Part shown: positions 8,390-50,725 of the stretch, one piece after another
Position numbering within the stretch: position 1 is the stretch's first letter
How the letters are laid out: each line of letters begins with the position of its first letter
Assembly: GCF_000338295.1 (NCBI RefSeq)
Contig: NZ_ANMO01000024.1
Location: 1-59,566 of the forward strand
Reading direction: 5' to 3'
From: Rhodopirellula europaea 6C
Lineage (GTDB): Bacteria; Planctomycetota; Planctomycetia; Pirellulales; Pirellulaceae
DNA: 59,566 nt
Notes under the pieces: generated by a model
The model's input: the letters and a program-made list of their open reading frames with translations, nothing else
What the model was told of the DNA's origin: nothing
Database searches by the model: none
Program-made: the position numbers and the translations under genes

Positions 8390-8395
8390 GGCAGA

Positions 8396-9649
8396 TCAAA
8401 GAGTTTGCGTTCGCAACGCAGCACGATCGTTCAGGAAATCGCGAAGCTCTTGGGCCAACTGGCCTGCTGATTGGGGGCGTTCCTCGGGATCGTCGGACAG
8501 GCATCGAGAAAGGATGGATTCGAGTTTTGGGTTGAACTTGGGGTTGATCTCGGTCGCCGGTCGCGGATCGGTGTTCGCAATCGCATCGATCGTTTCTTCG
8601 CGGCTCAGCGACAGCGCACCGTGCGGGTGCTCTCGAAGCAGAAACAGATAAAGCATCGTTGCGACGGCGTAAAGGTCCGATCGATGATCCACGCTGTTGG
8701 CGTCACCGCGGGCTTGTTCCGGTGACATGTAAAGTGGCGTTCCCAGGACAGCCCCATCGTGGGTGCTGTTTGCCGAGACGGGTGATTTGGTTCGGAACAT
8801 GGATTTGCTCAATCCAAAATCAACCAGTTTGGGTTGCTCATCGGGACCCACCATGATATTGGACGGTTTCACGTCTCGATGGATCACACCATGATCATGC
8901 GCGTGCTGTAAGGCATCGCAGACCATCGCCATCATCTCGATAATGCGAGTCGCACGCGGAGATTCCCGAGCAATGTAATTCGCCAAAGAATCGCCGTCGA
9001 TCAATTCCATCGCATAGTAAGCCAAGTCACGCTCTAAGTGGCTCGCATAGATTGTCGCGATTCCCGGATGATCCATTTTCCGCATCACCTGAATTTCGCG
9101 AGCGAACCGTTCGAAGACCAAATCGGTTGCAAGATCCGCGCGGATGATTTTGATCGCGGCCGGTTTGCCCGAGGCGCGGTGCATGCCTTTCCAAACGGTT
9201 GCAAAGGCCCCGCGTCCAATCAGATGATCAATGTCGAAACCTTCGATTTGAGGTTTTGTCCATTTCATCGGTGGAACGGCTTCAACAATTCGTCTCGCTG
9301 CGGTCAAGCGACTCTTTAGAAGCGGCGCGACAATCGGTTTGGTGAGGTAGTCGTCGGCACCCGCGTCCAACCCCTGAATCATGTCTTCATCACGATCGCG
9401 ACTGGTAAGCAGAATGATATAGGTGAATTGGTTTTCCGGATCCTGTTTGATTCGGCGACAGATTTCGACGCCTTCCATCCCTGGCATCAACCAATCAAGC
9501 AATGCCAAACGAGGCGGATCGTCGGACTGGAGAAGCTCGTAAGCCTCGTTGCCATCCGACGCCAACTCGATCCGATAGCCCCAATTCTCGACAGCTGCCG
9601 AAATCAGATTTCGCCAAACTGGATTGTCGTCAGCGATCAGCAATTTCAT
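8396..9649 (-). CDS. Receiver domain-Ser/Thr protein kinase fusion
   Basis: A 417-residue cytoplasmic protein. The N-terminal receiver (1-120) has phospho-acceptor Asp52 and Lys104. A Hanks-type kinase follows (about 138-405) with glycine loop GRGAFATVW, Lys167, HRDVKPSN (257-264), DFG (277-279) and an SPE in place of APE. All catalytic residues are present, so an active kinase is expected, controlled by phosphorylation of Asp52. The gene overlaps the upstream hybrid histidine kinase by 4 nt, and that protein ends in an Hpt domain, which makes it the natural phosphodonor. The fusion would pass a His-Asp signal on to Ser/Thr targets. Confidence 0.93.
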   Translation of the reverse strand: MKLLIADDNPVWRNLISAAVENWGYRIELASDGNEAYELLQSDDPPRLALLDWLMPGMEGVEICRRIKQDPENQFTYIILLTSRDRDEDMIQGLDAGADDYLTKPIVAPLLKSRLTAARRIVEAVPPMKWTKPQIEGFDIDHLIGRGAFATVWKGMHRASGKPAAIKIIRADLATDLVFERFAREIQVMRKMDHPGIATIYASHLERDLAYYAMELIDGDSLANYIARESPRATRIIEMMAMVCDALQHAHDHGVIHRDVKPSNIMVGPDEQPKLVDFGLSKSMFRTKSPVSANSTHDGAVLGTPLYMSPEQARGDANSVDHRSDLYAVATMLYLFLLREHPHGALSLSREETIDAIANTDPRPATEINPKFNPKLESILSRCLSDDPEERPQSAGQLAQELRDFLNDRAALRTQTL

Positions 9650-12228
9650 AGTGTTTCGTTTCCGGGGTGTTCTCTTCCGGATGAAGAACGCAGAAACTTC
9701 TTTAGTTCAGTTTGGGCCAAATCGAAGGCACTGACGAGTGCTTTCATTTGATTGTTAAAAAAATATGATGCCTTCTCTTCAGACGTCTCCCATGAAGGAA
9801 AGGTTTCCAACCTGTCGGCGATTTCTTGCGCCCGCGTCGCACCAATTGCCGAGGCGGTTCCTTTTAACGTGTGCGCGGCTCGAGCAATTTGCGTTGAATC
9901 ACCCACTTCGATGGCCTGTCGCAGCCTTTGCATTTGCGGTGGCAATTCATCGGTGATGGTTTGGACTAACATTGCGAGCACCTGCAAGTCACCACCGACA
10001 TTGTGAAGGATCACCTCGCGGTTCAATGGCTCAGCCAATGAATCGTCAACATTGGTTGAAGGCGTCTTTTCGATTGGTTGAGCCGGAGAAACCAAGTCGT
10101 CTTGATCGTCGGTATGAGACTCGAACGATTCGATTGTTTCAAACAACACCTCGGGCGGATAGGGCTTTGTGAGGCACTCATTCATCCCGGCATCCATGCA
10201 GCGTTGTCTGTCTTCACGCATGGCATGGGCGGTCAATGCGACGATGGGAACGTCGTTGGCCGGAGATGGTAAATCGTTTCGAATGATCTGGGTCGCAGTT
10301 AATCCATCGATGCCCGGCATTTGTACGTCCATCAGGACTAGGTCAAACGAATGCAATCGGAGTTGCTCCATGGCGTCTGTCGCATTGGAAACGGATGTCA
10401 CACGATGCCCTCGTGCACGCAGCATTGTTTCGGCGACGGTGCGATTGATAACACCATCTTCGACTAGCAATAGCTCACGCGGTTGATCGCACTGTCCAAA
10501 CGCCTTGGCGGACGTCTCAAGTGGTTGAGTCTTCGCTATCTCATGGGATGCCACTCCGTTGGTCGTTTGCAATGGAATGTCGAAGCGAAAGCTGCTGCCT
10601 TCGTTTGGAACACTGCTGACCTGAAGACGCCCACCCATTAACTCCACTAATTGTGAACTGATCGACAAGCCCAACCCGGTTCCGCCGAAACGCCGCGTCG
10701 TGGATGAGTCACCTTGGGTGAATGCCTCAAAGATTTTGGATTGCTGCTGCTTCGTCATGCCAATGCCGGTATCGGTGATCGTGAATGCGATGCGAGATCC
10801 TTTTGAATCGGAGGTGTCCAACGTCGTCGCGTCTTGTGTCTCGTTTTCGACGGTGACAATCACTCGGCCTTGTTCGGTGAACTTCAGGGCATTTCCGACC
10901 AAGTTGATCAGGACCTGACGAAGTCTTGTGGGATCACCGACAATGATTTCGGGGACACCGATGGGCGGTTGGAATTGCAGGTCAACCTCGTCGTTCTTGA
11001 GATTCGCAACGGCGTGCATGGTTTGGCTGAGTAGATCCTTTAACTCGAATGGGACGGACTCCAGCGTCATCTGTCCCGAATCAACCTTCGAAAAATCAAG
11101 GATGTCGTTCAGGACCGTGAGCAGACCTTTCGCAGAGGTCTGAATCATATGCATGTAGTGTCTTTGTTGCTCGTCGAGCGAACTGCGATTCATCAGTTCG
11201 GCAGTTCCCAAAATGCCGTGCATGGGCGTTCGAATTTCGTGACTCATGTTGGCCAGGAATTGGTTCTTGATGACGGCCGCCTGCCGGGCCTGTGCGGCGG
11301 CTTGGGTGGCCAAATCTCGCTGGTCCTGCAGCAGAGCGTGGTTCCGCTGTTGGGCAACAATACCCGCCTTCAGCATTCCTATGCTGGTGACTGCACCTAA
11401 AAACAACGTGATGAGTGCGGCAACGATTCCCATCGCGCCGAAACGGGTGACGACGATCGAACGAATGTAGTTTCGGGCTGGGAAATCGACTCCGACCAAC
11501 CCCTCGATGTTCCCGTTAGCATCAAATATGGGCGCATAGGCGGAAACCCATACTCCCCAACGGTCCACGCTGGGTTGATTGCCAAAGGTTGTTGCGCCTC
11601 GGAAAGCCTGTTCGATTTGTTCGACGCTTCTGTCGTAGAAGATTTCTCCAATCTCCGTGCGACTTTCTCGAACGCCTTCGATCTTTCCATCGCCGCTGTA
11701 GTCCGTTTCCGAGTCGACGATGATTTTGTAGGGATGTCCGTCGTTATTTTCGGGTTCGGGCAATGGACGGGTGGCCAAATCCGACTCACCTATCCGTCGC
11801 ATGGTGTAGATGTCGGCGACTTGTGGATTAACCGACAACCAACGCTTTTGAGCTTCGATCATGCCAAGGTATAGCGGATCATCCGGCGACGTTTGCTCGT
11901 CGATGTTCGCATGCCCAAGTTGTTGCAGTTCCGCAGCATAGGTTGGTGCAATTCCGAAAACTTGTTGTCGCATTCGCGATCGCTGGACACGGTCGGCGGT
12001 TTCGACCGCGATGAAACCTCCGACCAGCAACAACACGAGAATGCAGAATGACAATTTCGTGTGCAGGCCCGATCCGATTGCCTCGGGAGAGGTGGACGAT
12101 TCCGGGTGTGTTGTCGAAGGCGGCGGCATGGCCCGCCGGACCCGCGAAAGGATGGAGGAGTGCCCGACTAAGAACACGATGGTGAACAAAGCGTAGTCGA
12201 TGCGATATTCGTACCACGCTTGTCCCAT
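9646..12228 (-). CDS. Hybrid sensor histidine kinase (HisKA-HATPase-REC-Hpt)
   Basis: An 860-residue membrane protein. Hydrophobic segments lie at about 12-29 and 58-76. An extracytoplasmic sensor region (about 80-260, Cache/PAS-like with a VDFPARNYI end) and a further membrane helix (about 264-288) follow. The kinase core has H-box His330 (NMSHEIRTPMHGIL), an N-box around 440-450 and G boxes (DTGIG, GGTGLG). The receiver has Asp634 (VLMDVQMPG) and the C-terminal Hpt has His786 (AAHTLKGTASAIGA). The start at 12228 puts the gene 3 nt after the preceding small membrane gene; a later start (Met34) is possible and would remove the first helix. It overlaps the receiver-kinase gene by 4 nt. Confidence 0.93.
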   Translation of the reverse strand: MGQAWYEYRIDYALFTIVFLVGHSSILSRVRRAMPPPSTTHPESSTSPEAIGSGLHTKLSFCILVLLLVGGFIAVETADRVQRSRMRQQVFGIAPTYAAELQQLGHANIDEQTSPDDPLYLGMIEAQKRWLSVNPQVADIYTMRRIGESDLATRPLPEPENNDGHPYKIIVDSETDYSGDGKIEGVRESRTEIGEIFYDRSVEQIEQAFRGATTFGNQPSVDRWGVWVSAYAPIFDANGNIEGLVGVDFPARNYIRSIVVTRFGAMGIVAALITLFLGAVTSIGMLKAGIVAQQRNHALLQDQRDLATQAAAQARQAAVIKNQFLANMSHEIRTPMHGILGTAELMNRSSLDEQQRHYMHMIQTSAKGLLTVLNDILDFSKVDSGQMTLESVPFELKDLLSQTMHAVANLKNDEVDLQFQPPIGVPEIIVGDPTRLRQVLINLVGNALKFTEQGRVIVTVENETQDATTLDTSDSKGSRIAFTITDTGIGMTKQQQSKIFEAFTQGDSSTTRRFGGTGLGLSISSQLVELMGGRLQVSSVPNEGSSFRFDIPLQTTNGVASHEIAKTQPLETSAKAFGQCDQPRELLLVEDGVINRTVAETMLRARGHRVTSVSNATDAMEQLRLHSFDLVLMDVQMPGIDGLTATQIIRNDLPSPANDVPIVALTAHAMREDRQRCMDAGMNECLTKPYPPEVLFETIESFESHTDDQDDLVSPAQPIEKTPSTNVDDSLAEPLNREVILHNVGGDLQVLAMLVQTITDELPPQMQRLRQAIEVGDSTQIARAAHTLKGTASAIGATRAQEIADRLETFPSWETSEEKASYFFNNQMKALVSAFDLAQTELKKFLRSSSGREHPGNETL

Positions 12229-12231
12229 CGG

Positions 12232-12606
12232 TCAGTTGCCCTGTGCGGGGGCGAGCGTGTGTAGCACCAGCATGCCGACTACTGCGAAGAGGGCGATCGT
12301 GTAGACCAGCACCACGCTTGACCAAAGAACTCGTTGCCATGCAGAGAAGTTTGGATTTCGCCACAAGAGCGGAATCCCAAAGGCACCAGTCACAAAGAAC
12401 AAGACAGTCAACGTTGCCACGGGGCGATTGGACCACTGAGCCGCGTCGTCGTTGTGGGCACCGTTCAGGTAAGCCGGTGCAACCGTTCCTGGTTGAATCA
12501 CGACCGAACGATGAACACCATCGGAGACGCCATGCTTTTGCTCCGCTGACGAGTCAACGCCTTCGTTCGGCGACGGGAGTTCCAGGTTCGCTTCGGCGGA
12601 AGTCAT
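12232..12606 (-). CDS. Small two-helix membrane protein, unknown function
   Basis: A 124-residue protein starting at MTSAEANLELPS; earlier in-frame ATGs would overlap the pseudokinase gene. A hydrophilic N-terminal 60 residues is followed by two hydrophobic helices (about 63-83 and 94-119). I recognise no family. It sits between a membrane pseudokinase and a hybrid histidine kinase with gaps of 13 and 3 nt, so it is probably co-expressed with them and may be an accessory membrane component of that signalling unit. The role is inferred from position only. Confidence 0.7.
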   Translation of the reverse strand: MTSAEANLELPSPNEGVDSSAEQKHGVSDGVHRSVVIQPGTVAPAYLNGAHNDDAAQWSNRPVATLTVLFFVTGAFGIPLLWRNPNFSAWQRVLWSSVVLVYTIALFAVVGMLVLHTLAPAQGN

Positions 12607-12619
12607 CCAGACGATCTCG

Positions 12620-14281
12620 CTAAGGAAGTTTGTCGACGGCGGCACCGGCGGATGTTTCCGCCAATCGACTTTGTGCGGTGGCAACGAGTGGTTCGACAGC
12701 CGCATTGGATCCGTACAGTTCTTCGATGCTGTACCAGATCTTTCGCGCCGCGATGGTTCGCCCTTCAACGAACATCCGGTCAGCTTCTTTCAATCGGTCC
12801 GTGATGATGCGGGCGGCTTCGGTTTGGTTGGTGTCAGCCTGTGAGATTTGTGCGATGCGGTTGCGAGCGAGATTGACCAAAGGTTTGTATTGTTCTTCGT
12901 CGCCGAGCACCGTGATCATCGATTGGTACTTGTCGACCGCGGTGGCATTGTCACCAAATGTTTCGTACCGCATGGCTTCGGCAACGAGGCGTTCGGCTTC
13001 GTTCTGGAGCGGCAAGTTGCGATTCATTTTGACTGTCAAAGCGTGCTCCGCCTCGACCATTCGCACGCGGTCGATTTGTTCGGCAGCCCATTCGGAATGC
13101 TCTCCATCCGGGAACTGAGCCAACATCGGTTCCAGGTAACTGATGCGAGCTTGCGACATCGACGAACGTGTGTCTTGTGCGAGCAACTCCTCCGCTTCGT
13201 TTCGCATCTTTGATTCGTTCATTGGCCAAGCGACCCAAACCAGTATGCCAATCAAAACGGCCAGAATTGGTAGCAGCACCAACGCTTGATCATGCCACGG
13301 TGTCGCATCCGGAATCGAATCCACTTCAGCTTCGATTTCTTTTCGCCCCAACAACTTGCGGGCTTCTTTGCGATCCGCATCATCGGTCACGGACAGCGGA
13401 CTGAAACCACTCGAGGCATGCTCGGCGACGCCGCTGCGAGACATTGAACGTTTGCGGACTTCGGCTAGCTGAAGCTTGACCGCGGCAGCCGACACGGGAC
13501 GCTGACCGGGATCTTTGTTGAGCAACTGCATCACCAATCGATCCATCCACACGGGGCATTCCATCACGGTGGAAGCCACGGAAGTTGGCGACTGATATTT
13601 CAGATTGCTGGTGACTTCTTGAACGGTGGAACCGGTGATCGGCGGCGCACCGGTGAGTGCCTCGTAAAGCAACGCACCAAACAGATAGAGATCGGTGCGG
13701 GTCGTCACCGGATCGTTTGGCGTGGGGGCCTCCGGAGCCGATCGCATCATTTGGCCGATCGATGGTGGACGCGAAATGTGGTACGGGCCGCTTCGAAAGG
13801 GCGGCGTCCCGTCAACGTCGCGAACATCGATCAACACGGGACTCAACCCGGCGATGATGACTTTGTCAGGGGTGAGTCTTCCGTGAACGATGTCGCGGTC
13901 GTGCAGATACATCAATGCATCGATCAAAGGCTCCGCGAGTTCGAGAACCGATTCCCAAGGCAACCGACCTCGACGCTGGATCTCCTCTGCCAAGGTGGAT
14001 CCTTCGACCAATTCATGAGCCAGGTAGGCTTCCGACTCTTCGAAGCCGCCACCGTAGCATTTGACGATAGCTGGATGATCGAGTCGTTTGAGGCGATCCC
14101 ATTCTTCCGCGAAAGCCTGTCGTGATTCTTGGGTTCCGCCAAATGGCATCTGGAAGACGCGAACGGCCACCGCTTTTCGCATTTTGATGTGCACGGCACG
14201 CCAAACACGCGCGTCCCTCGCCGACGGATCGGGACCCAGCGGGGATTCAATGGCGAGCGGACCGAGACGACTGCGAGGCAT
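12620..14281 (-). CDS. Membrane-anchored Hanks-type pseudokinase with extracytoplasmic repeat region
   Basis: A 553-residue protein. Residues 1-280 fold as a Ser/Thr kinase (HPAIVKCYGGGFEESEAYLAH, then LIDALMYLHDRDIVHG), but key residues are missing. The ATP-binding Lys is Arg41, HRD reads HGR (133-135), the following catalytic Lys and Asn are Thr and Lys, and DFG reads DVR (152-154). A single hydrophobic helix (about 325-345) precedes a helical, TPR-like C-terminal part predicted outside the membrane. Pseudokinases usually act as scaffolds or ligand-controlled switches. It heads the gene set small membrane protein, hybrid histidine kinase, receiver-kinase, trmK and is separated from uppS by 80 nt. 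Confidence 0.88.
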   Translation of the reverse strand: MPRSRLGPLAIESPLGPDPSARDARVWRAVHIKMRKAVAVRVFQMPFGGTQESRQAFAEEWDRLKRLDHPAIVKCYGGGFEESEAYLAHELVEGSTLAEEIQRRGRLPWESVLELAEPLIDALMYLHDRDIVHGRLTPDKVIIAGLSPVLIDVRDVDGTPPFRSGPYHISRPPSIGQMMRSAPEAPTPNDPVTTRTDLYLFGALLYEALTGAPPITGSTVQEVTSNLKYQSPTSVASTVMECPVWMDRLVMQLLNKDPGQRPVSAAAVKLQLAEVRKRSMSRSGVAEHASSGFSPLSVTDDADRKEARKLLGRKEIEAEVDSIPDATPWHDQALVLLPILAVLIGILVWVAWPMNESKMRNEAEELLAQDTRSSMSQARISYLEPMLAQFPDGEHSEWAAEQIDRVRMVEAEHALTVKMNRNLPLQNEAERLVAEAMRYETFGDNATAVDKYQSMITVLGDEEQYKPLVNLARNRIAQISQADTNQTEAARIITDRLKEADRMFVEGRTIAARKIWYSIEELYGSNAAVEPLVATAQSRLAETSAGAAVDKLP

Positions 14282-14361
14282 GAGGCAACGAACGAAAACG
14301 GAATGGAAAAAACACCTTCTCTATCATACCCACGTCATGGAAGATTGGGTCGGGAAGTGTG

Positions 14362-15096
14362 TCAGGCTCCCACGTTTAACCCGCCAAAACGACGTTGTCT
14401 GCCGGCAAACTCGTCCAAAGCCGCCTGGAAGTCGTCCCGCTCGAACTCGGGCCAGCATTTCGGGGTGAAGTACAACTCGGCATAGCTGATTTGCCACAGC
14501 AAATAGTTGCTGATGCGGATGTCTCCGCCTGTGCGAATCATCAAATCGACGTCAGGCAGTCCCGCCGTGTCCAGCGATTCATCCACCAGCGACTCAGTGA
14601 TCTCGTCGATGGACCGCTCGCCGTCCCGGACTTGCTGAGCGAGTTGCCGAGTCATTCGAGTCAGTTCGTCGCGTCCGCCGTAGTCGACGGCCAGGACCAG
14701 TTCTGTGCCGGTGTTGTTCTCGCTCACCGCCTGCGTTTTCGCAATTTCTTTCAGGACTTCATCGCTCAGCCGATCGCGTCTTCCGATGAAACGCAATCGC
14801 ATATTCTGATCGCGAATGGTTCGTCGTTCCTCAACCAGATACTGCTGCAGCAGGTGCATCAAGAAGTCAAGTTCAGCCTGCGGCCGTTTCCAATTCTCGC
14901 TCGAAAGGCAATACAACGTCAGTGCGTCGAGTTCCAGTTCGCTGGCCATTTCCGTGACCGTTCGCACCGTCGTGACGCCTCGTCGGTGGCCTTCGATGCG
15001 AGGTAAATCGCGTGCTTGGGCCCAACGGCCATTGCCGTCCATGATGATCGCGACGTGACGTGGAAGATTCATGCTGAGAAGTGGAACAGAAGTCAT
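14362..15096 (-). CDS. uppS: Isoprenyl transferase (undecaprenyl diphosphate synthase)
   Basis: A 244-residue cis-prenyltransferase that makes the C55 lipid carrier for cell-wall and polysaccharide synthesis. The catalytic signature HVAIIMDGNGRWA lies near residue 14-26, TLYCLSSENWKRP lies near 60, and the C-terminal RTGGDIRISNYLLWQ and ELYFTPKCWPEF are fully conserved. The start at 15096 overlaps the stop of the upstream TPR gene by 4 nt, which supports it over a second Met eight codons in. It appears co-transcribed with rpoD and the TPR gene. Confidence 0.97.
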   Translation of the reverse strand: MTSVPLLSMNLPRHVAIIMDGNGRWAQARDLPRIEGHRRGVTTVRTVTEMASELELDALTLYCLSSENWKRPQAELDFLMHLLQQYLVEERRTIRDQNMRLRFIGRRDRLSDEVLKEIAKTQAVSENNTGTELVLAVDYGGRDELTRMTRQLAQQVRDGERSIDEITESLVDESLDTAGLPDVDLMIRTGGDIRISNYLLWQISYAELYFTPKCWPEFERDDFQAALDEFAGRQRRFGGLNVGA

Positions 15097-24917: not shown

Positions 24918-25094
24918 CGACGGCAGTCTCTCTCTCGGAAAAGAATCGGCTGGCCCGGCGGGGCGATGCATAAACGAAGCTGACGTGGCTGCAATTCGTT
25001 TCAGGCATCTCTGTTGGCGTGGGGCACCAACCGGGCTTCGCTATTCAGTCAGATCGACTGACCCGCTCGCCGATCACTTTCCGTTTCGGTTACC

Positions 25095-25112
25095 TTGCAC
25101 CGATCGGTGCAA
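25095..25112. promoter_or_regulatory. Perfect 18-bp palindrome upstream of rsmE
   Basis: TTGCACCGATCGGTGCAA is self-complementary over 18 bp and begins 80 nt before the rsmE ATG. It lies between divergent genes. The arms are TTGCAC and GTGCAA, the opposite order to the operators near dabA, so it is probably a different site. The binding protein is unknown. Confidence 0.45.
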
Positions 25113-25174
25113 CCGGCACGATCAGACCTTTTGGCATCTTTTGTATCTCCTCGAATTTTCCTGAACCGCCCGCG

Positions 25175-25948
25175 ATGACTCGACGCTACTACGTTCCCGA
25201 TCTGCGAACCCAAGCACCCATTGTGCAACTGCCCGATGAAGAGGCTTCCCACGCGTCGCGGGTCATGAGGGTGCAAACTGGCGACTGGATCGAGTTGTTT
25301 GACGGGTGTGGGCACCAGGCGGATGCGGAAGTGGTTACTGTCAGCAAACGAGAATGTGTTGTCCGGTGCGATGCGATCAAGGCGGTTGATCGCGAGCCAA
25401 GCGTTGCGATTGATCTCGCGATCGGTTTGCCCAAACCGGATCGAGCCAAAGAGATGATCGAGCGATTGACCGAGTTGGGCGTCGCACGCGTATTTCCGAT
25501 TGTCTTTGAAAGAACCCAGCGGCCTCCCAAAGACAACTTTCTCGACAAGCTTCGAAGGATCGTGATTGAGTCGTGCAAGCAATCGGGACGCAACGTTCTG
25601 ATGACAATCGAATCACCAACCGACTTCGCCAGCTTCGCCGAGACAATCGCCGCGAACAACAGCATCAGTGATGAGGGAGATGCCCCGTCGAGTTGGCAAC
25701 GGGTGCTGGTCGCGATGCCGGACTCACCGCCGCTCAACGCAATGGATGTCAATCAAAACGACATGGGCCAATCCGATGTAAACGGCCGACCGAGCACGCT
25801 GGCATTGATCGGCCCCGAGGGTGGGTTGTCGGAAGCGGAGCACCAACGATGCATCGACATCGGAGCAGAATCCATCGGATTAGGGCGACGGATTCTGAGG
25901 ATTGAAACGGCTGCGGCAATTGTTGCGGCACGTTTGGTAGTGGATTGA
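25175..25948 (+). CDS. rsmE: 16S rRNA (uracil-1498-N3) methyltransferase
   Basis: A 257-residue SPOUT-family methyltransferase starting at MTRRYYVPD, the family's usual first residues; a longer frame from 25019 lacks homology. The N-terminal PUA-like part has LPDEEASHASRVMRVQTGD. The knot region has LAIGLPKPDRAKEMIERLTE with LGVARVFPI, KLRRIVIESCKQSGRN, ALIGPEGGLSEAE and LGRRILRIETAA for SAM binding. Residues 150-200 hold a somewhat Asn/Asp-rich insertion compared with typical RsmE. It methylates U1498 in the ribosomal decoding centre. Confidence 0.96.
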   Translation: MTRRYYVPDLRTQAPIVQLPDEEASHASRVMRVQTGDWIELFDGCGHQADAEVVTVSKRECVVRCDAIKAVDREPSVAIDLAIGLPKPDRAKEMIERLTELGVARVFPIVFERTQRPPKDNFLDKLRRIVIESCKQSGRNVLMTIESPTDFASFAETIAANNSISDEGDAPSSWQRVLVAMPDSPPLNAMDVNQNDMGQSDVNGRPSTLALIGPEGGLSEAEHQRCIDIGAESIGLGRRILRIETAAAIVAARLVVD

Positions 25949-26068: not shown

Positions 26069-27409
26069 ATGCTTGCTTCACGCATGAATGCCCTGCTAAC
26101 CGACACACACAATTTCGAATCAGCCGCGTTGGGCGGTCTGTTGACGGACGATACGTTTTGGCCAGCGGAACCCCGCTCGCTGAATGAACTCGGCCTGTCG
26201 GTCAGCTTTATCGAAGCATTGACAATCAAGTCGATCCATCAAATCGGAACCATCAGCGGCCGCAGTGTGGCAACGATGATGGGTTTGCCCTTTCGTTTGG
26301 TGGAACCCATTGTCGATGCGCTTCGAACTCGGAAGTTTGTCGCACACGTGCGGCCGGCGGCATTCAACGACTACTACTACTCGCTGACCGAACTGGGGCA
26401 AAAGCGGGCGCAAACTCACCTGCAACAATGCAGCTACATTGGGCCGGCACCCGTGCCATTGGCTGACTACTCACTCAGCGTGGAAGCTCAAGCCGCCGGC
26501 GTCGATCCCATCGAGCGAGATGATTTGCAAGCTTCGCTTTCGAAGATCTCCTACCAGGATGAGTTGCTCGACCAGATTGGTCCCGCCATCAACAGCAACA
26601 CCGGGATGTTTTTGTTTGGTCCTCCCGGCAATGGCAAGACCACCATCGCTCGAAGCTTGACTCAGTGTTTGGGCCAGGAAATTTGGATCCCTCATGCAAT
26701 TCTGGATGATGGCAACCTGATCAAAGTCAAAGACGATGCCTATCACCAAGAAGCTCCCGTGCCGGAAGGCGACGGTCAATTGTTGAAGGCACAAGAATGG
26801 GACAAGCGTTGGGTGCGAATTCAACGACCCAGCGTTGTTGTCGGCGGTGAGTTGGTGATGGAGAACCTCGAAGTTCGCCACGATCATCGATCGAATATCT
26901 GCGAAGCGCCGCTTCAGATGAAAAGCAATTGTGGTTGTCTGTTGATCGACGACTTTGGTCGTCAACGAATCGCTCCGGAAGAGTTGCTCAACCGGTGGAT
27001 TGTGCCGCTGGAAAATCGATGCGATTACCTGACGTTGCCAACGGGAAAGAAGATTCAGATCCCATTTGAGCAGCTCATTTTGTTCTCGACCAATCTGAAT
27101 CCGGATGACCTCGTTGACGAAGCATTTCTTCGCCGCGTGCCCTACAAGATCTTCGTGAACGATCCGTCGCCGGATGAGTTTCGGTCACTGATGAAAACGG
27201 TTGCTTCACAAATGGGTTTCCCTGAGACACCCGAAGCCGCCAATCATTTGCTCGCCTATTACAAACAAAACAATCGACCACCGCGTCGATGTCACCCCCG
27301 AGACTTGTTGACGCAGGTCGCGAATTTCTGTCGCTACCGTCGATTGCCTTTGACATTGCGACCGGAGTACCTCGATCAAGCCTGCCGCAGCTACTTCAGT
27401 GCTCTCTAG
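26069..27409 (+). CDS. AAA ATPase with winged-helix-like N-terminal domain
   Basis: A 446-residue cytoplasmic protein (Met6 at 26084 is an alternative start). The N-terminal 115 residues look like a winged helix (LGLSVSFIEALTIKSIHQIG, then a wing ending DYYYSLTELGQKRA). The AAA module has Walker A FLFGPPGNGKTT (181-192), Walker B CGCLLIDDFGRQ (about 290-301), LFSTNLNPDDLVDEAFLRRV as sensor 1 with arginine-finger-like residues, and a lid domain ending in CHPRDLLTQVANFCRYR. It belongs to a predicted-ATPase group I associate with planctomycetes but cannot name. It is followed on the same strand by the kinase-tubulin fusion 141 nt later, so the two may form one system. Confidence 0.85.
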   Translation: MLASRMNALLTDTHNFESAALGGLLTDDTFWPAEPRSLNELGLSVSFIEALTIKSIHQIGTISGRSVATMMGLPFRLVEPIVDALRTRKFVAHVRPAAFNDYYYSLTELGQKRAQTHLQQCSYIGPAPVPLADYSLSVEAQAAGVDPIERDDLQASLSKISYQDELLDQIGPAINSNTGMFLFGPPGNGKTTIARSLTQCLGQEIWIPHAILDDGNLIKVKDDAYHQEAPVPEGDGQLLKAQEWDKRWVRIQRPSVVVGGELVMENLEVRHDHRSNICEAPLQMKSNCGCLLIDDFGRQRIAPEELLNRWIVPLENRCDYLTLPTGKKIQIPFEQLILFSTNLNPDDLVDEAFLRRVPYKIFVNDPSPDEFRSLMKTVASQMGFPETPEAANHLLAYYKQNNRPPRRCHPRDLLTQVANFCRYRRLPLTLRPEYLDQACRSYFSAL

Positions 27410-27550
27410 GATTAGTACTAAACGGGCTCGCCCCTTTTCGAGCAAGGCTCGATCCTTCCTCATTTTTCAAAGCTTCGGATTCCATCAAGGAATTCGTGAC
27501 GAACCAAACTTTCCAATTCGCCGCTCAACAATGTTGTTCACAGTCGTCCG

Positions 27551-30500
27551 ATGACCGTCAAGACAACCCAAACGATCGCTCCCGGATACGAACCAATCAC
27601 TGGCTACACGCTGGAAAAAAAGATTGGTGAAGGGGGATTTGGTGAAGTGTGGTTGGCCAATGCGCCAGGCGGATTGAAAAAGGCGGTCAAGTTCGTGTTT
27701 GGTGCCAACGACGCCCGACGCGGTTCACGCGAGCTGAAATCGTTGGAGCGAATCAAGGGAGTTCACCACCCGTTTTTGTTGACTCTGGAGCGATTCGGAA
27801 TCGTGGACGATCGCTTGGTGATCGTCACGGAACTGGCGGACGGATCGCTCGAAGACGTTTTGAAACGACACCAAGACCGCGGTTCATGCGGCATTCCTCG
27901 GGCAGCATTGCTGTCGTATCTGCACGATGCTGCGGACGCGTTGGACTATTTGCACGGCAGCTATCAACTGCAGCACCTCGACGTGAAGCCGGGGAACTTG
28001 TTGTTGGTCGGTGGACACGTCAAAGTCGGTGACTTTGGTTTGTTGAAAGATCTGCGAGAGATCGATCACTCGGTGATTGGCGGATTGACGCCCATCTACG
28101 CTCCGCCGGAACTGTTCGACGGTCGGCCATGCATCAACAGCGATCAGTATTCGCTTGCGGTGATGTATCAAGAATTGTTGACGGGAACGCGTCCATTCAC
28201 CGGTCGCACGATCGCTCAATTGGCAACGCAGCACATCCATGCGGCACCCGTGTTGGATTCATTGCCAGCGGCAGACCGTGTGGCGGTGGCGCGCGCATTG
28301 GAGAAAGATCCGGAGCGTCGTTTCGACTCGTGCAAAGACTTCGTCGAAGCCCTGCGAACGACCCGTGGACGCGACGAGACGCCGATCCACACCTCCGCCA
28401 AACCAAGCATTCGGACTCGTCAGGAAGCGGTTGAAGACTTGCCAAGTCTGAAGTCCGGAAAAGCAATGGTACACGCCCGTGTGACGGGACATGCTTTGGT
28501 GGTTGCCGTCGGCGGTGTCGGAGCAGAATGCTTGCATGAACTGCGCAACCGTGTTGCGACTTTGCACAGTGCATGTCCTTTGGATTTGCATTCGGTGTTG
28601 ATCGATACGGATATGCATACCATTCACGCGGCTCGTTTGGCGGAGGCATCGGACCGCATTCCACCGGCGACGATCCTGCACACACCACTCAAATCAGCTC
28701 AGCAATATCGCGAAGGACGGACCGATCACTTCCGATCGTTGTCGCGTCGTTGGATCTACAACGTGCCTCGCAGTGGTACGACCGAGGGCATGCGTCCACT
28801 GGGACGACTGGCGATGATTGACCACGCGAAAACCATTGACTTGGGGCTTCGCGAATCGATCGATCACTTGGCGGCCGTTTGTGGTGACCGTATTCCATCG
28901 GTCTATATCATCGGTTCGCTTTCAGGCGGAACGGCGAGCGGAATGGTGATGGACTTGGCACCTCGCATTCGGACCATCTTGGATGAAGCAGGCTTGGAAA
29001 GTGCTTCGGTGTTGCCGTTGCTTTCGACTGTGTCGCTGCAAGGCAACCCGCACCAACCATTGACGTTGCACGATTCATTCGCAGCGATCTCTGAGATCGG
29101 TCACTACATGTTGCCCGAGAATAGCTATCCCGGGGATCCCGGCGTTGACTGGTCCGGTGTTCCGGCGTCTCGGAATCCGCTGCGAAATGCGTATGTCGTC
29201 GTCGACGGCGATCACGCTCTTCCGTCAGGTTCTGCCGCGGCAACGATGGTGGACTACTTATGGGCGGATGCGACCGGCGCAGGCGAGTTGTTGGCGGAAG
29301 CTCGACGAAGTGACCAAGCCGACGCGGCGGTGCTCGCGAAGCCTATGTTGCGATCTGTCGGAGTGGCCCGATTGAAATGTGTTCGAGCGTTGGAAGAGAA
29401 CCTGCTCGCACCCGCCGCCGCACGTCACCTGTTGTTGCGTTGGCTCGGCAATCCCAACGAGTCACGCCAGATCGCAGGCCCAACGACCGAACGTTTGCGG
29501 AAGCGGTGCGGTTTGGAGATCGCGAATTATTTGGACGAAGTGAAGGCACCCTTTGGCCAAGACGCAGACGCAATTGCTCGAAATCTATCTGAGATGCTTT
29601 CGCGACTATCGGTCCAGGAGATGATGGATGGCCCACGAATCGCGCGACTGTTGAAAGAAAAACTGAGCGAGTGTGATGTCTTGGATCGGTTGGACCGTCG
29701 GGCAGCGACCCAAATGGTCATGCTTCGTCGCGAAGTTTCGGTCCGGATGCACGACGGACGAATCGACGTCACGTCGAGCATCCAGGCCACCGAAGGATTG
29801 ATGAAGTGGTGCTCGACCCAAGTCCAGAAACTCGAACAATTCCGAACCGACCTGCGAGAGCAGCAGACCGCCTTGCGGCAAGAGCTACGCTCCGATACCG
29901 ATTTGGAACGCGAAATCGAAGCGGCTGAGAAGTTGGCGATGATGGAGTTGAATCTGATCGCATCGGAAATGGCAGGCGAACAACTCAAAGCATTTGCAAA
30001 ACGAATCGAGAGTCTGCATGCGACTTTGACCAAGATGGCGGTTGGAATCGCAAAAGCCATTCGATGTGTTCCCGGTGACAATCGTGACACTGAAAACCCG
30101 TGGACGGAGATGCCCCAGGAGATTCAGATGCGTTTCAATGCGGTTCTAGAAAACCTGCATTCACAAACCGCGTCGCCTTGGTTGCTTGGTCCGTTGCGTG
30201 ATGCAAAGGTCGAGTGGGACGAACAGGAAATGGCAACCGATTTAGTCGGGAAGTGTCTGCCCGTTGTCGAGAACGTGATCGACGCTCATCGACAATCGTC
30301 TGCTAGTTTGAACGATTCGACGACCTCATCGGCGTCGGTTCTGACTCAGGATTCAGATCTGACGAACACCCAAACAATCCATGAACAACGCGACACCAAC
30401 ACGGATCAGTTAGCACGGACAGGAGTCTGCGAAACTCAGACGTTTGAGCAACCACAGAACGGCACTTCTTTGTGGAATGAACAAACGACGATTGAATCCG

Positions 30501-30784
30501 CGCTGCAAGTTGCATCGCCACCGTTGCTGCAATGCGGCGGTCGCCAACGCCTGTTGTTGTTGGTCGGAAGTGAGTCGGACCGCGAACGTTTGGAACCTCA
30601 GGTTTCATCCGCTCACACGGGATCACTGACGACGGTGGTGATACCAGGCGTCACGCCAATCCTTGTTCACGAAGCCCAGCAAATTCCGATCGACAATGTT
30701 TTGGAACAGTTGGAATTGGTTTCTGGTGGCAACACGCAGGTCAGTAAACGCTTGCATGCTCGCAGCGACGTGAATTGGAAATAA
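27551..30784 (+). CDS. Ser/Thr protein kinase fused to tubulin/FtsZ-superfamily (Tubulin_2-like) domain
   Basis: A 1077-residue cytoplasmic protein without membrane helices. The kinase (about 19-270) has GEGGFGEVW, Lys47, HLDVKPGN (142-149, catalytic Asp144), DFG (161-163) and APPE, so it should be active. After a 40-residue linker a GTPase fold begins: ALVVAVGGVGAECLHELRNR (about 315-334), SVLIDTDMHTIHAARL, and the tubulin/FtsZ-type glycine signature GSLSGGTASGM (455-465). The order and spacing match the Tubulin_2-like family, with GGTASG in place of the usual GGTGSG. Residues 650-880 are largely helical. A Ser/Thr/Gln-rich stretch (about 915-975) precedes a short conserved C-terminal domain. 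Polymerisation and phosphorylation targets are unknown. Confidence 0.85.
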   Translation: MTVKTTQTIAPGYEPITGYTLEKKIGEGGFGEVWLANAPGGLKKAVKFVFGANDARRGSRELKSLERIKGVHHPFLLTLERFGIVDDRLVIVTELADGSLEDVLKRHQDRGSCGIPRAALLSYLHDAADALDYLHGSYQLQHLDVKPGNLLLVGGHVKVGDFGLLKDLREIDHSVIGGLTPIYAPPELFDGRPCINSDQYSLAVMYQELLTGTRPFTGRTIAQLATQHIHAAPVLDSLPAADRVAVARALEKDPERRFDSCKDFVEALRTTRGRDETPIHTSAKPSIRTRQEAVEDLPSLKSGKAMVHARVTGHALVVAVGGVGAECLHELRNRVATLHSACPLDLHSVLIDTDMHTIHAARLAEASDRIPPATILHTPLKSAQQYREGRTDHFRSLSRRWIYNVPRSGTTEGMRPLGRLAMIDHAKTIDLGLRESIDHLAAVCGDRIPSVYIIGSLSGGTASGMVMDLAPRIRTILDEAGLESASVLPLLSTVSLQGNPHQPLTLHDSFAAISEIGHYMLPENSYPGDPGVDWSGVPASRNPLRNAYVVVDGDHALPSGSAAATMVDYLWADATGAGELLAEARRSDQADAAVLAKPMLRSVGVARLKCVRALEENLLAPAAARHLLLRWLGNPNESRQIAGPTTERLRKRCGLEIANYLDEVKAPFGQDADAIARNLSEMLSRLSVQEMMDGPRIARLLKEKLSECDVLDRLDRRAATQMVMLRREVSVRMHDGRIDVTSSIQATEGLMKWCSTQVQKLEQFRTDLREQQTALRQELRSDTDLEREIEAAEKLAMMELNLIASEMAGEQLKAFAKRIESLHATLTKMAVGIAKAIRCVPGDNRDTENPWTEMPQEIQMRFNAVLENLHSQTASPWLLGPLRDAKVEWDEQEMATDLVGKCLPVVENVIDAHRQSSASLNDSTTSSASVLTQDSDLTNTQTIHEQRDTNTDQLARTGVCETQTFEQPQNGTSLWNEQTTIESALQVASPPLLQCGGRQRLLLLVGSESDRERLEPQVSSAHTGSLTTVVIPGVTPILVHEAQQIPIDNVLEQLELVSGGNTQVSKRLHARSDVNWK

Positions 30785-37965: not shown

Positions 37966-40047
37966 TTGATGAAAAGGCATGCGATGAGTGCTTTGGCCGA
38001 TACAATGGAACTTCCCGCAGACTACTCGAACCCAATGCCATCAACTCGTTCGATGAAATTCACCCACTCCCCTAACGATCTGGTCCTGGACCGATACACG
38101 ATTCGTCGTGGCATCGGGGTGGGCGGATTTGGCGAGGTGTATTTCGCGGTCAGCCAAGCGGGCAAGGAAGTCGCACTGAAACGCATCCAGCGGAATCTGG
38201 AAGTTGAACTGCGAGGGGTTTCTCACTGTTTGAATCTCAAACACCTGAACCTGGTCTCGCTTCACGACGTGTGTCGGGATGCCGACGACCAAGCTTGGGT
38301 GGTGATGGAGTATGTCGCCGGTCCCAACTTGCGGGAAGTATTGGACGACGCGGCCAAATCCGCCACGTCCGACTCTCGCAATGTCTTGCCGAGCGGCATG
38401 TTCGAATCGCAGGTCCGCCACTGGTTTGCGGGAGCCGCGGCTGGCGTTGCCCATTTGCACTCGGCCGGTTTGGTCCACCGTGATATCAAACCTGGCAACT
38501 TGTTTGACGACAACGGCATCGTCAAAGTCGGTGACTATGGGCTGAGCAAATTTATTTCCGCCTCTCACAGAAGCGGACACACCGAGAGCATCGGAACGTT
38601 CCACTACATGGCTCCCGAGATCGGTCGTGGGCAGTACGGTCGCGAAATTGATTTGTATGCACTTGGCGTGATCTTGTTTGAAATGCTGACGGGCGAATTG
38701 CCGTTTGATGGCGAGACCCCGCAAGAGATCATTGTCAAACACCTGACCGACTCGCCCGACTTGTCGCGTGTGCCAAATCAATACCGAAACGTGATCCATC
38801 GCTGTCTGCAAAAGGATCCTCGCAAACGTCCTCGCGATGTTGCAGAGATGCTTTCGCTAGCTTCAATGCCAACCGATGAGACGCCCGTTTTGGCCGAAGT
38901 GGTTTCGTCCGATCCGAAAGAACGAAATAGCGATACATATCATTCTTATCCCAAAAACAACCGACGCAGCGAGCCTGTTGGTGCCGCAGATGGTGTGACT
39001 TCACCAAATGCTGATACGGCAACGATGGTTTTGAATGCACCGGTCGATGAAGAACCGATCGCACGAGCGGTTCGAAATAGTTTTTCCGATGCACGAGCTT
39101 GGTGGCGGGCACTTGAGACATCGCCTGGTATCAAGCTGGTCTTGGCCATTTCGGCAGTCGCGATTTTGTTGATCAACACGCACTGGTTGTTGCCAGTTTT
39201 GTCGATGGTTGGATTCTTTTACGTTCCGTACTACGTGATTCGTCACGTTGTGCTGCAGCTATCCGAACCGACATCGTATTCAACAAACGCAGCGGATTCG
39301 CGAAGTGTGCCACAACATGATTCCCCTGTTCATGCCGTCGCGAATGTTCGACCGGCTGGAAAGCCCGTGATGACGAAGACGCAAGTCCGATCGCTGCTGA
39401 GAACCAGTTTGTCTGAACGGACTCGGTTGTCGCGTTCGGCGGAATGGGCGACATCAGGAATGACATCGATGATCGTGGCCGGCGTGCTGCTGTTGCTTAG
39501 TTCTGTGATCGGAATGCGAAGCACCCCGCTCACCCCCATCGCTTTGGCGCCCTACGTTTGGATGGCGTTGGTGATTTGGCTGGGAGCCTTTGGGTTGCTC
39601 GGCATTGGTAAGTTCTGGGAAGGCAGTGAAGGCGAAGGATTGGTTCGTCGCCTAGTCTCCGCTTCTTGGGGAGCCTGCGTTGGACTTCTCGCTTACGCTC
39701 TCGGCCATTTCCTGATGGTGCCAATGGATGAGGGATTGGGACGAGACATCGATGCAACGGTGCTGCCGGTTTCGTTCTATCTGGAATCGGGCGTTCCCAA
39801 AGCCGCGGCGATGATGGGGCACTTCGCTCTGCTGTTTGCACTCCTTCGGATGTGGAAACCAGTTGATCCCTTGCGTCGAGTTCGATTGAGTTTGTGGGCG
39901 GTTACCGTCGCGGTGGTTGGTGAATGGGTTGTTCATCAAATCGTTCCCGTTCCTCAGCCCGCAGGCATGTTGATTGCCGGCGGCGTGATCGTGATGACAC
40001 AATTGTCAGCTCCCTGGGTGAAATCCAATGCAATCTCAACAGTCTGA
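37966..40047 (+). CDS. Polytopic membrane Ser/Thr protein kinase
   Basis: A 693-residue protein (a second ATG at 37984 is an alternative start). The kinase domain (about 42-300) has GIGVGGFGEVY, an ATP-binding Lys in EVALKRI, HRDIKPGN, an unusual DYG in place of DFG (KVGDYGLSKF) and APE in HYMAPEIGRGQYG. Catalytic residues are intact, so it should be active. The C-terminal half contains hydrophobic segments (about 380-425, 495-515, 528-545, 565-590, 603-625 and 640-680), so the kinase is anchored by several helices. The next gene starts 20 nt before its stop, indicating co-expression. Confidence 0.92.
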   Translation: MMKRHAMSALADTMELPADYSNPMPSTRSMKFTHSPNDLVLDRYTIRRGIGVGGFGEVYFAVSQAGKEVALKRIQRNLEVELRGVSHCLNLKHLNLVSLHDVCRDADDQAWVVMEYVAGPNLREVLDDAAKSATSDSRNVLPSGMFESQVRHWFAGAAAGVAHLHSAGLVHRDIKPGNLFDDNGIVKVGDYGLSKFISASHRSGHTESIGTFHYMAPEIGRGQYGREIDLYALGVILFEMLTGELPFDGETPQEIIVKHLTDSPDLSRVPNQYRNVIHRCLQKDPRKRPRDVAEMLSLASMPTDETPVLAEVVSSDPKERNSDTYHSYPKNNRRSEPVGAADGVTSPNADTATMVLNAPVDEEPIARAVRNSFSDARAWWRALETSPGIKLVLAISAVAILLINTHWLLPVLSMVGFFYVPYYVIRHVVLQLSEPTSYSTNAADSRSVPQHDSPVHAVANVRPAGKPVMTKTQVRSLLRTSLSERTRLSRSAEWATSGMTSMIVAGVLLLLSSVIGMRSTPLTPIALAPYVWMALVIWLGAFGLLGIGKFWEGSEGEGLVRRLVSASWGACVGLLAYALGHFLMVPMDEGLGRDIDATVLPVSFYLESGVPKAAAMMGHFALLFALLRMWKPVDPLRRVRLSLWAVTVAVVGEWVVHQIVPVPQPAGMLIAGGVIVMTQLSAPWVKSNAISTV

Positions 40048-48066: not shown

Positions 48067-50466
48067 ATGGCTGAGTCTGCCAAACCGACCAACCGACTTC
48101 CATCACGCAGTCCATCAAGCTCAACGTCTGACGGCGAAGAAACGCTGGATGTTCTGCAGATATTGAGCCGCCAACGCTGGTTGATCGCGTTTCTGTCAAT
48201 CGCCGGGCTCGCCGCTGGTGTGGCTTACGCGTTGAACGCTCAGGTTTGGTACGAGTCCAACGCCAAGGTTTTGATCAACCAAGCGAGTGCAGGTTTGGGT
48301 GGCGATAGCACCGGCGCTGACATGGTTGATGAGGATATTCTCGCCAACCACATGGAATTGCTTCTTAGCCGGAAAATTGTTGGTGAGGCACTTGATCCCG
48401 AGCCCGTCAAGGATGAGGAAACGGACGAGCTAATCAAGCGGGAGAAGTTGATTGATTTGCCATCCGTCTTGCCTCATCTCGACGAAAAAACGGATGCGAT
48501 CGACTACGTCATCGACCAGCTTTCGATCGTTAAAGGTGGAGACGGCTCCGCGAAGACGGCTCGAACTCTCAACATCACCTTCACTCACACGGACCCGGAT
48601 GATGCGAAACGGATCTTGACCGCCGTGATGAGTCGATACCAGCAGTTTCTTATCGATCAAATTGATCAAGTGATGGGCCATGCCAACGACATGGTGACAG
48701 AGGCCAAGTCGAAAGTGGAAAAAAGCCTGGAGGATGCTGAGAACGAATATTTAGCAGCCCGCCAAAAGGCGCCGTTGTTCTTCCAAGGTGAGGGTAGCAG
48801 CAACATTTATCAGGATCGGTACCGCCGGTTGCAGGACGAATTACTTGATCTGGATATCCAGGAATCAACGGTCAAGACGCGTTTGACTCGGGTCGATGAA
48901 ACGCTCAAAGAGATGGATGAGTCGGTTGACCCAATCGATCAACTGGACAAACTTGCTTTGATTGATAGCGAGAGTTTGGAACGTCTTGGCGTCTTTGCAG
49001 GACTGCAGATGAACTCTGCCAACACGGCTGAATTCAAAGCGGCGATGCCAGCCAAAATGGAAGAAGCTCGGACGCAGATCACTCACCTGTTGAGGCTTAA
49101 CAGTGAAAAGCAACGGTTGACTTCGGTCTTTGGACCTGGGCATCCGAAGGTGCAGGAACTTGAGAGCGAAATCACGCTGGTCAAAGAGTTTTTGCAGGAC
49201 CAAAAGGATCTCACCAGCCCGGCAGAAATGTTCGGTGACAGTGCGCTCACGCCCGAGGGATTGTTGAAAGCTTATGTGGGCTTTTTGAATCATGATTTGG
49301 CGGCTCTTTCTGAGCGTCGCAAGGAACTGACCTATCTTGCGGACGACGCCGGAACGAAAGCGAAAGAACTGATCGAGTACGAGCTTCGCGACATGATGCT
49401 GCGAAAAGCGATTGAACGTCAGGAAGCTCTCTTCGATGGTGTTGTTCAGCAACTTCAGAATCTGGACACCACAAGTGAATTGACTGGTTATCTGTACGAA
49501 ATCCTTACTATTCCGCGGACGGGCGAAAAGTCATGGCCGAAACTGCCGCTTTGCGGACTTGGCGGTTTGATGCTGGGTTTGTTTTCTGGACTGTTCCTGG
49601 CTGTTGCCAATGACGTTCGTGATGGACGATTCCGGTCGGCCGCTGAGCTGGACGAAGCAATCGGATTGCCAAGCCTGGGGCGTGTTGGCAAGCTGAACTC
49701 GATCAACCAGGGCATCAAGGGATTGATCGCAACGGAGCTTTCGCCTGACGCTGAAGCTTTCCGTTTGGGACGCACAGTCTTGCTACCTGATGTCCGAAAC
49801 GGGAATGTTCGTGCGATCGGGTTCACCAGTCCTATGCAGGGCGATGGCAAATCGACCGTGGTATCCAACTTTGCCGTGTCGTTCTCTCAAGTCGGATTGA
49901 AGGTATTAGTCATCGACGCCGACCTTCGCCGTCCGAGTGCTCATCGATACTTCAGCATTGGGAAAGAAGACGGTCTCTGTGATGTTCTTGAAGGTCGCTT
50001 GGAAATTCCGGAAGCGATCAAAGTGACCGAGGCTGACAACGTTTCAGTGATGACAGCAGGATCATCGAGCCAAACACCTGCCGAACTATTGCAGTCGCAA
50101 CGACTCGATGAGGTTTTGGCGGTTGTGAAAGAAGATTTCGACTTGGTCTTGGTTGACCTGCCACCTGTGCTGGCAGTTTCCGACCCCGTGGTGGTGATGC
50201 CGCGACTGGATGGTGGTATTTTGGTTGTCAAAGTTGCCAATGTCCGTCGAGATGAAGTGGTCAACACGCTTCGCCGGATTGATAGTTCCGGCGGTGAGAT
50301 GCTGGGCTGCATGCTCAACGCTTTCGGAGCCGGCAAGAAGTTTGACTCCGATGGCGGCTACTATGGGTACTACAAGAGCGACTACACACGACCGTCATCG
50401 TCAACGACTCGCCAAGCCGCTCCAAAGGCTGCGACCATTTCCAGCAATGGACGTGTAGCAGAGTAG
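48067..50466 (+). CDS. Polysaccharide-chain regulator/tyrosine autokinase (Wzc-type BY-kinase)
   Basis: A 799-residue inner-membrane protein. A Wzz-type N-terminus has a helix at about 37-56, and a long helical external region follows (about 60-480, mostly coiled coil). A second helix (about 490-512) precedes the cytoplasmic BY-kinase. That domain has Walker A GFTSPMQGDGKSTVV (Lys near 595), Walker A' VLVIDADLRRPSAH and Walker B LVLVDLPPVL. The C-terminal tail carries a tyrosine cluster (GGYYGYYKSDY) as expected for autophosphorylation. It controls chain length and export of polysaccharide with a Wza-type partner, which lies convergently beyond a shared terminator. Confidence 0.94.
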   Translation: MAESAKPTNRLPSRSPSSSTSDGEETLDVLQILSRQRWLIAFLSIAGLAAGVAYALNAQVWYESNAKVLINQASAGLGGDSTGADMVDEDILANHMELLLSRKIVGEALDPEPVKDEETDELIKREKLIDLPSVLPHLDEKTDAIDYVIDQLSIVKGGDGSAKTARTLNITFTHTDPDDAKRILTAVMSRYQQFLIDQIDQVMGHANDMVTEAKSKVEKSLEDAENEYLAARQKAPLFFQGEGSSNIYQDRYRRLQDELLDLDIQESTVKTRLTRVDETLKEMDESVDPIDQLDKLALIDSESLERLGVFAGLQMNSANTAEFKAAMPAKMEEARTQITHLLRLNSEKQRLTSVFGPGHPKVQELESEITLVKEFLQDQKDLTSPAEMFGDSALTPEGLLKAYVGFLNHDLAALSERRKELTYLADDAGTKAKELIEYELRDMMLRKAIERQEALFDGVVQQLQNLDTTSELTGYLYEILTIPRTGEKSWPKLPLCGLGGLMLGLFSGLFLAVANDVRDGRFRSAAELDEAIGLPSLGRVGKLNSINQGIKGLIATELSPDAEAFRLGRTVLLPDVRNGNVRAIGFTSPMQGDGKSTVVSNFAVSFSQVGLKVLVIDADLRRPSAHRYFSIGKEDGLCDVLEGRLEIPEAIKVTEADNVSVMTAGSSSQTPAELLQSQRLDEVLAVVKEDFDLVLVDLPPVLAVSDPVVVMPRLDGGILVVKVANVRRDEVVNTLRRIDSSGGEMLGCMLNAFGAGKKFDSDGGYYGYYKSDYTRPSSSTTRQAAPKAATISSNGRVAE

Positions 50467-50589
50467 AACCGTCGATCCAGTTGCTTCGTGAGAGAGTCTG
50501 AGCTTGCAGCAGTTCTCTGCGGATTTGATGAGCAGCTTGGCAAGAGTCTTTCGGCATTTCAAATGATTGGCAAGCGTGGTTGCTCCCAC

Positions 50590-50640
50590 GTACAACCGGG
50601 GCTAACGTCCAAACGGCTCACATGGTTATGCCCGATCATT
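50590..50640. repeat. Possible dispersed intergenic repeat
   Basis: The minus-strand text here reads GAGCCGTTTGGACGTTAGCC followed by CCGGTTGTACG. It resembles short GC-rich intergenic repeats I associate with Rhodopirellula-type genomes. Only one copy is in this window, so the call rests on memory. Confidence 0.3.
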
Positions 50641-50663
50641 CCTACCGGCCTGCTTCGCAACGC

Positions 50664-50704: not shown

Positions 50705-50725
50705 GCTTTTTCGATCAGGCAATCA

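Follow-up and report, generated by a model that had tools for sequence, protein, structure and literature searches.

The FtsZl1 family of tubulin-like proteins (Tubulin_2 in Pfam) was described by Makarova and Koonin in 2010 (PMC2875224), and includes four planctomycete proteins with an extra N-terminal kinase domain. According to these authors the superfamily members characterised by then all form filaments, and the FtsZl1 system, built on vWA, OmpA and GTPase genes, was proposed to act in membrane remodelling; a reviewer of the same paper suggested transport or signalling instead and queried the ability of FtsZl1 to form filaments. The role has been unsettled since, and the planctomycete kinase fusions have been without a general context. 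The kinase domain in planctomycetes is also mentioned in PMC9871819, FtsZl1 is listed in Gemmata massiliana (PMC4672568), and PMC11032199 reports tubulin-like domains in planctomycete kinases, the tubulin-like domain being the most frequent of the partner domains restricted to cytoplasmic kinases. Here we describe a kinase-tubulin fusion gene of Rhodopirellula europaea 6C, in a stretch of 59,566 nucleotides (contig NZ_ANMO01000024.1 of assembly GCF_000338295.1, hereafter the window), together with an adjacent AAA ATPase gene and an unlinked gene for an FHA-EAL protein. The fusion itself is already published (PMC2875224, PMC9871819); the new part is the module to which it belongs and the two states in which that module is found. 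The near-constant partnership with an AAA ATPase and with a protein joining a phosphothreonine reader to a cyclic di-GMP (c-di-GMP) phosphodiesterase domain gives the fusion a concrete biochemical circuit that can be tested.

The locus consists of two co-directional open reading frames (ORFs), and its features are as follows.

26069..27409, + strand: AAA+ ATPase gene, 446 aa (ORF; motifs; predicted fold; kept beside kinase-tubulin genes)
26618..26644, + strand: Walker A, GPPGNGKTT, residues 184-192 (motif read in protein; alignment)
26936..26965, + strand: Walker B, CLLIDDFGRQ, residues 290-299 (motif read in protein; alignment)
27551..30784, + strand: kinase-tubulin fusion gene (PK-FtsZl1), 1077 aa (ORF; Pfam)
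27605..28321, + strand: Hanks-type Ser/Thr kinase domain, residues 19-257 (Pfam Pkinase E 6.5e-29; K, E, HLD, DFG and APE present)
28496..29119, + strand: Tubulin_2 (PF13809) match, residues 316-523 (E 5.7e-17, 62.4 bits against a cut-off of 27)
28511..28528, + strand: T1-like loop GGVGAE, residues 321-326 (motif read in protein; conservation)
28913..28945, + strand: T4-like tubulin signature GSLSGGTASGM, residues 455-465 (motif read in protein; conservation)
29372..30538, + strand: predicted long, mostly helical insertion, approximately residues 608-996, with low confidence at 927-977 (AlphaFold2 model)
30542..30751, + strand: predicted C-terminal alpha/beta module, approximately residues 998-1067 (AlphaFold2 model; structural alignments reach model residues 748-771)

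An earlier note on this DNA, made from the sequence without database searches, had claimed a Hanks kinase and a Tubulin_2-like domain in one polypeptide, both tubulin motifs, and an AAA ATPase just upstream on the same strand, all of which are confirmed here. For the tubulin region the closest named relatives (75-79% identity) are in Rhodopirellula rubra, Aporhodopirellula aestuarii, R. sallentina and Neorhodopirellula pilleata.

Related loci reveal a partner that is absent beside the window fusion, a gene coding for an FHA-EAL protein, in which both domains are above the Pfam cut-offs in the two that were scanned. These loci were found by the tubulin region alone, via two peptide patterns, and the main counts are of the best 80 of 153 confirmed relatives. 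Within 7 kb of the fusion, 49 of the 80 have both the AAA and FHA-EAL genes, 18 have FHA-EAL alone, nine have the AAA gene alone and four have neither; the contigs of these four all end within 3.2 kb upstream, and one (L117) shows a cut FHA-EAL gene at the contig end. At the 50 loci with at least 4 kb upstream and at least 5 kb downstream the corresponding numbers are 37, nine, four and zero. The AAA gene is within 7 kb at 58 of the 80 relatives (41 of the 50 with adequate flanks), so that the conserved adjacency on which the earlier note had staked its claim is borne out, and at 51 loci it precedes the fusion on the same strand, the open frames being under 600 bp apart; the median gap is 3 bp, a value that overstates closeness as it is measured between stop-to-stop frames. 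The kinase is in the same frame as the tubulin region in 79 of the 80, and the remaining one (L109) is cut by a contig end. We are confident that the components of the module are linked, using score thresholds and a 7-kb limit of our own choosing and local partner profiles that derive from the initial loci and relatives of these and are hence biased toward this clade. Nearly all of these loci carry planctomycete names; one contig with a kinase-tubulin fusion (L137) is instead assigned to Candidatus Nealsonbacteria, perhaps through a binning error.

This context differs from that published for FtsZl1 (PMC2875224), with which the window protein shares the kinase fusion and the order of an FtsZ-like domain followed by a coiled-coil or helical region. 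The published system has vWA, OmpA and GTPase genes as its basis, whereas AAA and FHA-EAL partners are the rule at the 80 closest loci with the kinase fusion. An association with FHA-EAL and AAA genes is undescribed in the literature searched (supplements and subscription papers lying outside the search) beyond a remark on P. staleyi by the PMC2875224 reviewer. Neither vWA together with OmpA nor GTPase operon partners were found at the window locus, with 20 of the 40 called window proteins Pfam-scanned; vWA and OmpA matches are absent from these 20 and from the scanned AAA, FHA-EAL, GGDEF and REC-GGDEF-CBS partners, the remaining neighbours being unscanned and membrane anchors unsearched. A vWA context is seen elsewhere in the class, in genome G194 (L060 1410-7780), where a kinase-free Tubulin_2 gene is beside a vWA-PKD gene in an arrangement resembling the published one.

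The FHA, EAL, GGDEF, tree, kinase and tubulin-loop counts that follow are from a larger set of 130 loci, comprising the 80, the window, nine earlier loci and 40 hand-chosen loci, with kinase-free Tubulin_2 loci left out. At least six organisms, recognised by contigs of equal length, are doubled in this set (L132/L211, L150/L225, L157/L204, L160/L205, L164/L209 and L173/L203), and these counts include duplicates of this kind.

The FHA-EAL partner is of two types, where type B denotes a locus with a REC-GGDEF-CBS-type gene within 7 kb and type A all others. What we take to be the eight key FHA residues (the EAL and GGDEF residues are likewise named on our assumption) are kept in all 102 adjacent FHA-EAL proteins, except for a single G to K change. 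Of the 65 type A proteins, 62 have all eight EAL residues, as does the copy in the R. europaea genome; none of the 37 type B proteins does. The GGDEF string is intact in all four type A GGDEF neighbours scoring above 150 bits (GGDEF genes below 150 bits that are not of the REC-GGDEF-CBS type fall outside this count), and GGDEF or GGEEF is absent from 37 of 38 REC-GGDEF-CBS-type genes; the exception, at L108, has GGEEF and is not the gene of this type nearest the fusion. Because the FHA residues are kept throughout and the EAL and GGDEF residues are kept or lost together, phosphopeptide reading appears from these alignments to be indispensable, with c-di-GMP catalysis retained or lost wholesale. 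Three genomes (G439, G450 and G695) carry both types as separate sets. Known FHA and GGDEF/EAL signalling proteins have the same standard domains above curated cut-offs, but here the FHA and EAL domains share one chain that is associated with a kinase-tubulin protein, and there are two evolutionary states, one of which has lost the EAL and GGDEF signatures together.

Where a partner is not beside the fusion it is commonly elsewhere in the genome. One example is R. europaea itself, in which an FHA-EAL gene on contig C114 encodes FHA and EAL domains above their cut-offs, has eight of eight EAL residues, and is 43% identical to the linked FHA-EAL protein of G307. The window's closest relatives (L094-L097) are the four full-flank loci with the AAA gene alone, and all four genomes have a full-length FHA-EAL gene elsewhere. 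For the nine full-flank loci without a nearby AAA gene, a module-type AAA (a score of 640 bits or more, against 615 at best for the general paralogue) is elsewhere in eight genomes, and the ninth has a contig-edge fragment. We also took a contrast sample of 27 genomes of the window's family, consisting of 15 of the 32 with the tubulin gene and all 12 sampled without it. All 15 genomes with the gene have the module-type AAA and none of the 12 without it does (Fisher p 5.8e-8); a full-length FHA-EAL is likewise in all 15, and in three of the 12 (Fisher p 4.7e-5). Both are lacking in genome G540, where the tubulin match is marginal (3e-4).

The kinase half of the fusion has every feature of a Hanks-type kinase that was looked for, with the G-loop, the VAIK-type lysine, the αC glutamate, HxD, DFG and APE, positions that we presume to be correctly named. 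Across 129 aligned kinases the G-loop glycine, the lysine, the glutamate, HxD, and the D and G of DFG are never substituted where a letter is aligned. The HxD motif is HLD in 128 of 128 sequences with letters there, and therefore the usual arginine is absent. Inspection by eye of the kinase-tubulin linker in 20 sequences for a phosphothreonine site found several to be threonine-rich, with no common motif seen.

The tubulin-like half (residues 310-640), for which the earlier note had proposed a profile and structure check beforehand, is placed by that check in the FtsZ/tubulin superfamily, through the PF13809 match, which spans only profile positions 1-239 of 356, and a predicted tubulin-like fold starting at approximately residue 313 of an AlphaFold2 model (mean pLDDT 88.6, pTM 0.70). 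The listed matches of the fusion protein to E 10 do not include PF00091, the FtsZ/tubulin GTPase profile, and the best match in a PDB-sequence profile search is CetZ (E 0.024). Nucleotide loops T1-T4 are present, assigned via FtsZ motifs and weak alignments, with GGVGAE presumably T1, and the key loop glycines and aspartates are kept in most of the 130 loci; the family profile aligns GSLSGGTASGM to the SGGTGS of CetZ in a weak match. In the model the FtsZ-like domain is followed by an extended coiled-coil or helical C-terminal region, the layout of FtsZl1, and the C-terminal alpha/beta module probably completes the second tubulin domain. Identity to CetZ, FtsZ, BtubA/B and TubZ is approximately 10%, and the window protein departs from these in having a kinase fused in front, a long helical insertion, and no clear T7 acid.

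The upstream gene product qualifies as an AAA+ ATPase by its Walker A and Walker B motifs and its predicted AAA+ fold. The Walker A columns G, P, G, N, G and K and the two aspartates of Walker B do not vary across 54 aligned AAA sequences, the window's included. Its best Pfam match, PF00004, is just below the curated cut-off (20.1 bits against 21.2). The earlier note had also seen a winged-helix-like domain in this protein, for which the helix and strand pattern at approximately residues 38-106 of the model is a consistent fit, this region not having been searched alone. The protein is 13% identical to the AAA+ protein Q8U0N8 of Pyrococcus furiosus (8p49; a literature search turned up no paper on this structure), Lon, PspF and RuvB. 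A MoxR-vWA ternary system was not recognised, with bpMoxR at 18.6 bits against a cut-off of 27 and no vWA match among the 20 window proteins. As for the general AAA paralogue, the R. europaea genome has a C-terminal match of 46 residues at G000:C269:32501-32638 (L236), which borders a stretch that is open in several frames, probably an assembly gap.

For the window's class, taken to be Planctomycetia on the strength of its named relatives, we propose a tubulin-like module of three or four parts coupled to phosphorylation and to c-di-GMP, a reading that we consider evenly balanced. The kinase would phosphorylate threonines, on itself or on partners, and the FHA domain of the separate FHA-EAL protein is rather likely to read this kinase's phosphothreonine, which would dock it on the tubulin-like protein. 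This genome's copy is of type A, in which the EAL domain would be active and degrade c-di-GMP locally, with some relatives adding a GGDEF cyclase; in type B, where neither the EAL nor the GGDEF signature is kept, the proteins presumably serve as sensors or scaffolds. The tubulin-like domain may bind GTP and serve as an assembling or switching core, although that it polymerises is a possibility against which we lean slightly, and the AAA ATPase would remodel or disassemble this core. The phosphorylation control suggested in the earlier note gains from the intact kinase residues and the conserved FHA-EAL partner, and its cytoskeletal or membrane part stands as a proposal only. A function in surface or cell-shape control would be a guess, and we hold any specific cellular role to be doubtful.

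Several observations weigh against the coupled module. In the window the FHA-EAL gene is unlinked to the fusion, full FHA-EAL genes are kept in three of the 12 family genomes without the tubulin gene, and the genome of L100, which is in many pieces, shows none. In families f114 and f117 of the same class the fusion is without an adjoining AAA or FHA-EAL gene at 12 of 12 fetched loci, and the 12 genomes have the module-type AAA in none and a full FHA-EAL in one, so the fusion can work alone. (Several copies of the fusion are frequent in these families; many f114 genomes have two or three, and L193, from f114, has two in tandem at 7495-14753.) Some EAL residues are absent from three of the 65 type A proteins (L133, L142 and L146). 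Type B is a single clade in the FHA-EAL tree and not in the tubulin, kinase or AAA trees, reflecting either exchange of FHA-EAL genes or poor resolution. Pairwise distances across 82 loci correlate at 0.77 for tubulin-kinase, 0.83 for tubulin-AAA, 0.58 for tubulin-FHA-EAL (0.79 within type A) and 0.48 for AAA-FHA-EAL, above permutation maxima of 0.08-0.15, and are weak support because shared descent alone gives such values. Foldseek TM-scores are modest among the best 40 matches (0.16-0.24 by query, 0.27-0.50 by target), because a single domain of a long model is matched. Finally, there is no well-conserved or recognisable FtsZ T7 acid in the columns taken as T7, where the alignment is uncertain, and hydrolysis and polymerisation may therefore be absent.

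This last point bears on a somewhat unlikely alternative, in which the tubulin-like domain has ceased to polymerise and is a GTP-dependent regulator and scaffold of the kinase, FHA-EAL is a phospho-dependent effector and the AAA ATPase a remodeler. Such a signalling switch would also fit the long helical insertion, the conserved neighbours identified, which are signalling proteins or an ATPase, and the PMC2875224 reviewer's suggestion and question; it sits less well with the strong conservation of the nucleotide-loop residues and with the filaments of the superfamily members reviewed by Makarova and Koonin. At the other end is a dynamic GTP-dependent cytoskeleton with assembly governed by its own kinase; once phosphorylated it would recruit FHA-EAL, which would lower c-di-GMP locally, and the AAA ATPase would sever or recycle its filaments. 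We think this improbable; if true, a bacterial tubulin-like system would be wired straight into second-messenger signalling. Less probable again is the membrane-remodelling machine proposed by Makarova and Koonin for FtsZl1, to which the shared domain family and the G194 locus with its vWA-PKD gene point; the vWA context is not that of the window locus, and the lack of vWA and OmpA matches in the proteins scanned argues against it.

A role as an FtsZ replacement is very unlikely. Its appeal is that FtsZ is absent from Planctomycetota (PMC11032199), and that PF00091 has no match in the R. europaea genome or in 147 of 148 class genomes (the single match is 23.3 bits; 13 of 14 control genomes were detected); together with the predicted tubulin-like fold this points to the kinase fusion as the sole recognisable tubulin-fold protein in many bacteria dividing without FtsZ. 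The distribution is patchy, however. PF13809 misses much of the clade, matching 22 of 392 genomes of the phylum at E ≤ 0.001 and 19 above the cut-off. A clade profile, scored on at most the six best first-look candidates per genome, gives a match in 165 of 347 genomes of the class; in the window's family it does so in 32 of 44 (the marginal G540 being among the 32), and the 12 without are 93-99% complete. The kinase-tubulin family is therefore not a universal division protein. An anti-phage or other conflict system, as for the GTPase-centred systems with tubulins of Kaur et al. 2020 (PMC7159879), is suggested by PADLOC matches (MADS6 and PD-T4-6 for the kinase, IetA for the AAA protein), and is highly improbable and rejected as the main reading, since these matches are confined to kinase or P-loop parts, component distances correlate across loci, the gene is single-copy in every family genome that has it, and no variable effector was recognised among the neighbours examined, which are part of the total.

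A scan of the locus for promoters and terminators gave signal no better than shuffled sequence. The AAA and kinase-tubulin genes are preceded in the window by an rRNA-methyltransferase-like gene (PF04452) at 25019-25948. Approximately 7 kb downstream of the fusion gene there is a second Ser/Thr kinase gene (37966-40047; 693 aa, Pkinase E 2.8e-47). Farther along, and not adjoining the module, are polysaccharide-export genes at 48067-55061, coding for a Wzz and AAA_31 protein, a Poly_export protein and an O-antigen-ligase-like protein, and the segment at 55231-59274 encodes a protein of 1347 aa that matches subtilase, H-type lectin and dockerin.
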